Source: an uncultured Eubacteriales bacterium
GTDB lineage: Bacteria > Bacillota > Clostridia > Christensenellales > CAG-1252
Length of the DNA stretch: 46,653 bases
Reading direction: 5' to 3'
NCBI GenBank assembly: GCA_902797685.1
Contig: CADBTQ010000027.1
Span: forward strand, 1-46,653
Of this stretch, positions 31,165 to 32,037 are shown piece by piece (the first letter of the stretch is position 1; each line of letters opens with the position of its first letter). Made by a program: the position numbers and the translations under genes. The notes below the pieces were generated by a model. The model did not search any database, had not been told where the DNA came from, and saw only the letters and a list, made by a program, of their open reading frames with translations.

Positions 31165-31256
31165 GCGGAAGTACCCAAGTGGCTCAAGGGGCTCCCCTGC
31201 TAAGGGAGTAGTATGTTAGAAGCGTAGCGTGGGTTCAAATCCCACCTTCCGCGCCA
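31165..31256 (+). tRNA. tRNA-Ser (GCU anticodon)
   Basis: The acceptor stem GCGGAAG pairs with CTTCCGC. The anticodon stem CTCCC/GGGAG carries loop CTGCTAA, with anticodon GCT at 31199-31201. A long class II variable arm and a GTGGG-TTCAAAT-CCCAC T arm follow. Discriminator G and an encoded CCA end the gene. It decodes AGC/AGU serine codons. The terminator begins within the encoded CCA. Confidence 0.97.
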
Positions 31257-31289
31257 AAAAAGGTTGCAGTGGTCTGCAACCTTTTTTGG
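31254..31289 (+). terminator. Intrinsic terminator of tRNA-Ser
   Basis: A 15-bp stem (31254-31268 with 31275-31289) has a GTGGTC loop and a T6 run in its right arm. Its left arm uses the CC of the tRNA's CCA end. Confidence 0.88.
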
Positions 31290-31415
31290 CGCTCTCGTTG
31301 AGATTTGCCCCCACGCCCCGCGTGCTAGACGGCGGGCACACCACTACCTTGGGGGCAGTACCTCTATCCTTGTCCCGCCTATTCCGCTCGTGCTCCCTAT
31401 GGTCGTCCTCGCTTA

Positions 31416-31436
31416 CAAATCCCACCTTCCGCGCCA
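31416..31436 (+). repeat. Duplicate of the tRNA-Ser 3' end (21 nt)
   Basis: Bases 31416-31436 are identical to 31236-31256, which covers half of the T loop through the CCA. The copies are 180 bp apart. The second is also followed at once by a strong hairpin (31437-31480), so the 'tRNA end plus hairpin' layout occurs twice although the hairpin sequences differ. No gene lies between the copies. The arrangement resembles the attachment-site duplication left by elements that integrate at tRNA 3' ends, but a partial tRNA duplication is equally possible. Confidence 0.8.
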
Positions 31437-31480
31437 TGAAAGAATCCACTTTTGTCGGTAGACGAAAGTGGATTCTTTCA
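31437..31480 (+). terminator. Strong hairpin/terminator after the tRNA 3' copy
   Basis: A perfect 16-bp stem (31437-31452 with 31465-31480) carries a 12-nt loop that itself contains GTC/GAC. The right arm reads AAAGTGGATTCTTTCA. It has no extended T run, so termination efficiency is uncertain. Confidence 0.6.
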
Positions 31481-31483
31481 ACT

Positions 31484-31656
31484 AAATCCGTCCAAGCGGA
31501 CGGGAGAAATCCACCGATGGTGGGTGAAATCTGCTGCGCAGGAGAAATCCGCCTAACGGCGGGAAAAGGACGGATTTAATTTCACCGCAAGCAAAGCGCG
31601 CGATTTCAACTGAGGGCATAGCCCGAAGATTTCAACACGGCACAGCCGTGATTTCA
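31484..31656. repeat. Hairpin array 1: short variable hairpins separated by a constant GAAATC/GATTTCA spacer
   Basis: An outer perfect inverted repeat, AAATCCGTCC (31484-31493) and GGACGGATTT (31568-31577), encloses three small hairpins: CCACC-GAT-GGTGG (31511-31523), CTGC-TGC-GCAG (31531-31541) and CCGCC-TAAC-GGCGG (31549-31562). GTCC-AAGC-GGAC (31490-31501) shares the left arm. To the right come a weak CGC...GCG (31586-31598), GGGC-ATA-GCCC (31614-31624) and CACGGC-ACA-GCCGTG (31636-31650). The spacer is AAATC on the left (31484, 31507, 31527, 31545) and its complement ATTTCA on the right (31579, 31603, 31629, 31651), a period of 18-26 bases. The stems are unrelated in sequence; only the spacer is conserved. 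Together with the flanking repeat copy this fills the region 31257-31686, which has no gene. Confidence 0.85.
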
Positions 31657-31686
31657 CAATCATAATCGTCAAATCGGGGGAGAATT

Positions 31687-32037
31687 ATGACTAAGAATAC
31701 GCTGTCTGAGTTATCTATCGACTTTGCTGTCGAAATACTAAAACTATGCGATCATGTTAAAGGTCATTATTCGCTCGTTAATCAGTTAGAGCGTTCCGCA
31801 ACGAGCATTGGCGCCAATATCCGCGAAGCCAATTATGCGCAAAGTAGGGCGGATTTTATCGCAAAATTACAGATCTCTTTGAAAGAGTGTTACGAAACCG
31901 AGTACTGGTTAGAATTGCTGAAAAAGGCGGAACTGTACGACGTTGAAATCGTAACAGACCTTTCGCATACTTGCGGAACTATCCGCAGATTGCTCGTGTC
32001 TTCCCTCAATACCGCCAAAAGCAATCAAAACTCGTGA
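31687..32037 (+). CDS. Four-helix-bundle protein (S23/IVP, Avd-like)
   Basis: This 116-residue, all-helical protein has the signature of the TIGR02436/S23 four-helix-bundle family: VNQLERSATSIGANIREA, then AQSRADFIAKLQISLKECYE, then TEYWLELLKKAEL. Relatives are encoded in 23S rRNA intervening sequences of Leptospira and Coxiella, and the fold is shared with Avd, the accessory protein of diversity-generating retroelements. Members are basic, oligomeric and thought to bind nucleic acid. GGGGGAG precedes the ATG. The gene is visibly richer in A+T and in codons such as TTA and CTA than its neighbours, suggesting transfer. It sits directly after hairpin array 1, and its stop codon is inside its own terminator stem. 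No reverse transcriptase or rRNA is nearby. Confidence 0.9.
   Translation: MTKNTLSELSIDFAVEILKLCDHVKGHYSLVNQLERSATSIGANIREANYAQSRADFIAKLQISLKECYETEYWLELLKKAELYDVEIVTDLSHTCGTIRRLLVSSLNTAKSNQNS

Follow-up and report, generated by a model that had tools for sequence, protein, structure and literature searches.

The array of small hairpins at 31484-31656 of the window (the whole 46,653-nt stretch of DNA analysed here) and the S23 gene that follows it probably make up a small selfish mobile unit, a tRNA-targeting, intergenic cousin of the 23S rRNA intervening sequence (IVS). It appears to have landed directly behind tRNA genes many times over in gut bacteria, and has the look of a relative, so far undescribed, of the selfish elements of 23S rRNA. 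The gene (31687..32037, + strand) encodes a four-helix-bundle protein of 116 aa from the S23/23S_rRNA_IVP family, which scores 88 bits against Pfam PF05635 and 99.9 bits against TIGR02436, and is close by sequence to the solved structures 2rld and 2gsc (XCC0516). XCC0516 is a toroidal pentamer, and both the function of S23/IVP proteins and the origin of 23S rRNA IVSs are recorded as unclear (PMC4990558). S23 genes are present in 14/20 genomes of the bacterial family and 57/299 of the phylum; the genome from which the window derives has three, with arrays at all of them. In two further loci (L224, contig C150 of G492, and L225, contig C1 of G478), several S23 genes lie in series on one contig, about 1.3-2.8 kb apart.

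The left half of the window array (31488-31562) comprises four hairpins with (T/G)AAATC spacers between them: A (31488-31503, CCGTCC AAGC GGACGG), B (31511-31523, CCACC GAT GGTGG), C (31531-31541, CTGC TGC GCAG) and D (31549-31562, CCGCC TAAC GGCGG). The right half (31579-31656) carries the reverse-complement spacer, GATTTCA, at 31602, 31628 and 31650, together with two clear hairpins (31614-31624, GGGC ATA GCCC, and 31636-31650, CACGGC ACA GCCGTG) and a weak one near 31586-31601. A long-range stem can form between arm P (TAAATCCGTCC, 31483-31493), whose last 6 nt double as the 5′ arm of hairpin A, and its partner P′ (GGACGGATTTA, 31568-31578), which therefore competes with hairpin A. The perfect inverted repeat that the sequence-only reading saw enclosing the left three hairpins is present, with a length of 11 bp rather than 10. 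Between the end of the array and the S23 start codon at 31687 lie 30 bp. Upstream of it is a 20-bp hairpin (31437-31480), at a place where relatives have a tRNA-terminator-like hairpin, GAAAA..TTTTC; it is here that the unit truly starts, so that the extent of 31484-31656 originally given holds for the array and falls short for the unit.

Folding of 31437-31660 gave z = -8.15 as DNA and -8.37 as RNA, with 0/200 shuffles equally stable, and a generic array detector returned a single array in the 46.6-kb window, the S23-linked one, and none in 10 shuffled windows. The array, with constant spacers and coordinates as first described, is not a product of chance. When an array was defined as a 6-mer in at least 2 copies with its reverse complement in at least 2, at least 5 in total and no more than 300 bp from the gene, one was found at 21/25 S23 genes in the family, 30/45 in the order and 24/50 in the phylum, compared with 13/179 and 12/317 for control ORFs in matching groups of genomes (Fisher p = 4e-16, 3e-16 and 2e-15 for family, order and phylum, respectively), in a comparison where control flanks are coding more often than S23 flanks and the loci are phylogenetically related. 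A further sample of S23 genes had arrays at 70 of 79, against a shuffled expectation of 7.7%. Compared with controls, S23 genes hence show a large excess of arrays of inverted short repeats or hairpins, and the absence of such enrichment, named by the sequence-only reading as an outcome that would refute its proposal, is not what was observed.

The form of the array varies with distance. In the wider phylum it is detectable at only about half of S23 genes, and in more distant Bacillota it consists of plain, hairpin-free repeats of ~7 nt, as in (agtaact)n ORF (agttact)n. The same plan is seen in another phylum, in two Akkermansia-labelled copies (L306 and L318), where the S23 gene lies between the two half-arrays; this placement is shared by two copies of the window's own genome, on contigs C7 and C88. 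The more alike two S23 proteins are, the more alike are their spacers (Mantel r 0.44, 0/2000 permutations), a correlation that linked inheritance alone would also yield, and a single genome holds three spacers, so the spacer follows the protein rather than the genome.

The landing site of the unit in the window is a tRNA-Ser (GCU) gene (31165..31256, + strand; ARAGORN and Rfam tRNA). An exact 21-bp copy of the 3′ end of this gene is found at 31416..31436 (+ strand), and the S23 element proper begins right after it. The ~180 bp between the tRNA-Ser gene and this copy (31257-31436) resemble a separate small insertion. In blastn comparisons of S23 loci at different tRNAs, homology starts about -200 to -260, at the array start, and stops no more than about 25 bp from the S23 stop codon; for two copies within one genome, behind tRNA-Cys (L170) and tRNA-Asp (L174), it ends at 0/+4, although an end at the stop codon may partly reflect fast divergence of non-coding flanks. 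By the extent of this homology, array and gene form one unit of roughly 600 bp. Several duplicate S23 matches (G259, G316, G302 and G376) were discarded as markers of the element ends, being one identical block of more than 3 kb, apparently rRNA operons.

A tRNA gene lies directly upstream, on the same strand, in 24 of the 28 close relatives with enough upstream sequence, usually 220-270 bp from S23. The frequency in more distant S23 sets is 16/44, 10/25, 13/41 and, for the wider phylum, 2/48, against 4/552 for control ORFs. In all, 67 tRNA-linked S23 loci were found, covering 16 tRNA isotypes plus tmRNA, and the order in relatives is tRNA-CCA, the terminator-like hairpin GAAAA..TTTTC, array and S23. 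Neighbouring-gene synteny at the window S23 locus revealed no clean empty site; searching with tRNA-Ser did, as the tRNA-Ser(GCU) genes of three sister species (G014, G016 and G018) are without the element, and that of a fourth (G017) is followed by a decayed S23 element with a different spacer. The unit is thus found at different sites, with the sites of relatives empty, and mobility would account for these patterns. The earlier proposal that array and gene act together as a mobile unit gains from the many tRNA sites, the shared boundaries and the empty sister sites. Strong same-strand linkage to tRNA genes might also be expected if S23 were a vertically inherited partner of tRNA operons, such as a tRNA or ribosome assembly factor, with the array as a processing or termination signal. 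The spread over 16 isotypes plus tmRNA across species, the empty orthologous sites and decayed copy in sister species, and the patchy presence in family genomes all make such an arrangement very improbable.

A second class of tRNA-linked S23 elements, with plain TTCACTATTCACT / AGTGAATAGTGAA repeats, was observed at six loci (L339, L341, L345, L347, L348 and L349). In the first ~115 bp after the tRNA, these loci have the 3′ arm and T-run of the terminator copied between the half-arrays, and this is possibly a copy of the target site.

Part of the window array proved to be recorded already under another name. Positions 31479..31553 (+ strand) match the Gut-1 RNA of Rfam (RF01706) with 53.7 bits, against a gathering threshold of 50. 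The definition of Gut-1 describes a structured noncoding RNA, found in human gut samples only (PMC2864571). It occurs above threshold just before S23 in 10/20 scanned S23 loci, and the window's own genome has 59 Gut-1-like matches in 36 clusters, often in +/- pairs. These matches are paralogues that fall into a small number of element classes, with the spacers GTGATATT, TGATATA, TGAAATC and GCGATAT, and the order of hairpins recurs among them. Tens of array clusters in this genome have no S23 gene. One such gene-less array is situated downstream of rpsR, and none is present between the same convergent genes in G018. Another is at folD (L011/L258), and a sister species is without it; the TGA with which folD ends belongs to the first copy of the spacer in this array (GCAATGATATA), so the inserted array seems to have replaced the original end of the gene.

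At their centres, seven gene-less arrays (L001, L002, L006, L010, L014, L027 and L205) share the same bidirectional-terminator-like hairpin (AAAAAAGATGGTTGG..CCAACCATCTTTTTT). Six other loci (L209, L210, L211, L213, L197 and L202) are large composites, in which a TGAAATC-class array seems to be nested with GTGATATT- and GCGATAT-class arrays, as would be seen if elements inserted into each other.

For the gene-less arrays, the best explanation is that they are non-autonomous, MITE-like relatives of the unit formed by array and S23 gene. Similarly, the Gut-1 'RNA' is best explained as being largely the left half of such arrays. The model matches the left half-array in the window and in relatives; unlike the free noncoding RNA on record, the sequence here is part of an S23 element, is present in many gut Clostridia, and in the window is joined by a right half and a gene. 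Gut-1 could instead be an independent small RNA gene, as its Rfam filing has it, which lies near S23 by happenstance, and its definition as a structured noncoding RNA and the existence of gene-less copies are in keeping with this. Such independence is nevertheless given very little credence, as above-threshold matches precede S23 at half of the scanned loci, homology between loci forms a single block of array plus gene, and the wobble signal of an RNA is absent (see below).

The stems of the array covary. A perfect inverted repeat of 10-14 bp encloses the inner hairpins in 30/32 loci of the window clade (in a few of which the longest repeat found differs from P:P′), whilst repeats of at least 10 bp occur in 8/165 shuffles. 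The span of this stem is mostly 90-98 nt, about 93 nt, and a same-span repeat of at least 10 bp is found in 28/47, 15/26 and 21/43 loci of wider sets. As the 5′ arm is usually common to both, the P:P′ stem and hairpin A are mutually exclusive. Across 25 aligned loci, pairing is kept in 89.5% of cells, compared with 37-48% when partners are slid, and both-side changes are seen in 20/25 pairs; the long-range helix is favoured here by construction, since loci were selected for a long repeat, whereas hairpins B-D were not so selected and have both-side changes in 13/14 pairs. Hairpin A also covaries, with 35 two-sided cells and 1 one-sided cell. The stems, held by the sequence-only reading to be unrelated, are indeed variable, yet between relatives their positions are homologous and their changes compensatory. 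Its description of the element as 'hairpin-diversifying' finds no support, as the clade keeps the number and order of left-half hairpins fixed. That reading did not notice that a tRNA gene serves as the landing site, that the left half matches Gut-1, that copies without the gene exist, or that the long-range stem and hairpin A exclude each other.

Stem changes that are nearly all perfect doubles, in perfect palindromes otherwise free to vary in sequence, are also what self-correcting palindromes would give, where template switching in replication keeps hairpins and P/P′ perfect without selection, and such palindromes accumulate near S23 for reasons that this explanation does not state. As it accounts for neither the constant spacers and fixed ~93-nt span, nor the linkage to a single protein family and the position behind tRNAs, it is judged quite improbable, if marginally less so than the tRNA-operon and independent-RNA proposals above.

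With regard to the level at which the pairing acts, there is no wobble bias in stems on the transcript strand (12 G.T versus 15 A.C in 2067 pairs). Triloops on the outward-running strand of both halves are most often GNA closed by C.G (97 GNA versus 29 TNC of 205), and C-GNA-G loops form unusually stable DNA mini-hairpins. The lack of wobble bias and the loop preference together favour action at the DNA level. The RNA minimum free energy (MFE) structure of 31437-31660 includes the long-range stem, and an RNA role may still apply because RNA folding prefers this stem. The main rival to a mobile unit is that the array is a cis-regulatory RNA leader, reached by read-through from the tRNA promoter and flipping between hairpin A and P:P′, by which binding of S23 would control its own synthesis. 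The location of the window-clade array between tRNA and S23 gene suits this model, as do two mutually exclusive, covarying pairings, the long-range one being that of the RNA MFE. It is harder to reconcile with the tens of array clusters without S23 in the window's genome, with G-U pairs not being in excess over A-C in transcript-strand stems, with the mirror symmetry of the two halves on opposite strands, which extends to the loop preference, and with arrays on both sides of the gene in other copies. An RNA leader is accordingly considered unlikely, if clearly less so than the other alternatives weighed here.

Amongst known systems, the selfish mobile unit comes closest to the 23S rRNA IVS with S23 ORF, which has itself been called a selfish element (PMC4990558). 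Like the IVSs of Coxiella and Leptospira, it combines an S23 ORF with complementary, stem-forming repeats in the transcription unit of a stable RNA. Three S23 genes in this sample (L120, L129 and L130) lie inside 23S rRNA, as recognised by eye, and are classic IVSs, closed by inverted heptamer arrays. The window element differs from these in that it is situated behind tRNA genes and not within 23S rRNA, its repeats are separated by mini-hairpins, and gene-less copies are dispersed. In addition, IVS repeats enclose the ORF, as the inverted arrays do at C7 and C88, whilst both halves precede it in the window. Given the position behind tRNA-Ser, the window element is a relative of the IVS rather than an IVS.

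Other comparisons are more remote. Dispersed palindromes, a gene family dedicated to them and a large number of copies without that gene recall REP and REPIN-RAYT systems, from which the element differs in having constant spacers, variable stems and S23 as the partner; the Y1 transposase (Y1_Tnp, PF01797) has no match in the window's own genome (98% complete), so that REPIN-RAYT identity was rejected. Avd, of diversity-generating retroelements, belongs to the same wider family as S23 and is a four-helix bundle that forms pentamers; the reverse transcriptase domain (RVT_1, PF00078) has no match in this genome either, and such a retroelement was likewise dismissed. A CRISPR array would have unique, non-palindromic segments between its constant repeats; this identity was rejected on the inter-spacer segments of the own genome, 74% of which form a perfect hairpin with a stem of 4 bp or more, compared with 11% when shuffled. 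The original statement that the array is neither CRISPR nor REP is therefore upheld. Heptamer repeats of cyanobacteria and Beggiatoaceae (TAACTGA) have been described with no link to S23 (PMC4679880) and, as known by that description, resemble the plain-repeat S23 elements in being short, intergenic direct repeats of ~7 nt.

How such a unit might operate can be outlined from these features. It would insert directly downstream of tRNA, and sometimes tmRNA, genes, where it would share in the strong transcription of a stable RNA whilst leaving that RNA unharmed. Its front end is palindromic: spacer K in the left half and the reverse complement of K in the right are separated by an apex, and the whole is kept as perfect local hairpins plus the competing long-range stem of 10-14 bp. 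The array is likely a structured end for recognition by the element's own, putatively pentameric S23 protein, which would bind the spacers, the pentamer gripping several copies simultaneously. No transposase, integrase or reverse transcriptase was found within the unit of array and S23 gene, nor was a clear target-site duplication established for it; its ends are approximate. Terminal-repeat-like flanking does not occur in the window clade, since both half-arrays precede the S23 gene. More tentatively, and with rather more doubt than belief, one may envisage a minimal class of mobile element that carries nothing but a small four-helix-bundle protein, assembled as a pentamer, and a hairpin array built as a palindrome. 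Such an element would target tRNA and tmRNA genes at their 3′ ends (or, as IVS, rRNA), would move without known transposase or reverse transcriptase, and would account for IVSs and Gut-1 RNA as well as for many of the heptamer repeats linked to S23.

The S23 protein family and the plan of repeats plus ORF are known already. In the open-access papers searched, none was found linking S23 to tRNA genes, to short repeats or hairpin arrays, or to Gut-1; the targeting of tRNA genes, the hairpin-decorated array and the identity of Gut-1 thus appear to be new. S23/IVP proteins are widespread, and Gut-1, an orphan 'RNA' without known context, gains one in the S23 element. If array and gene are one mobile unit, IVSs, Gut-1 RNA and S23-linked short repeats merge into one system. 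The array would then be the obvious candidate ligand for S23, and a testable substrate, and the mobile elements known to use tRNA 3′ ends would be joined by one that has no integrase-type gene.
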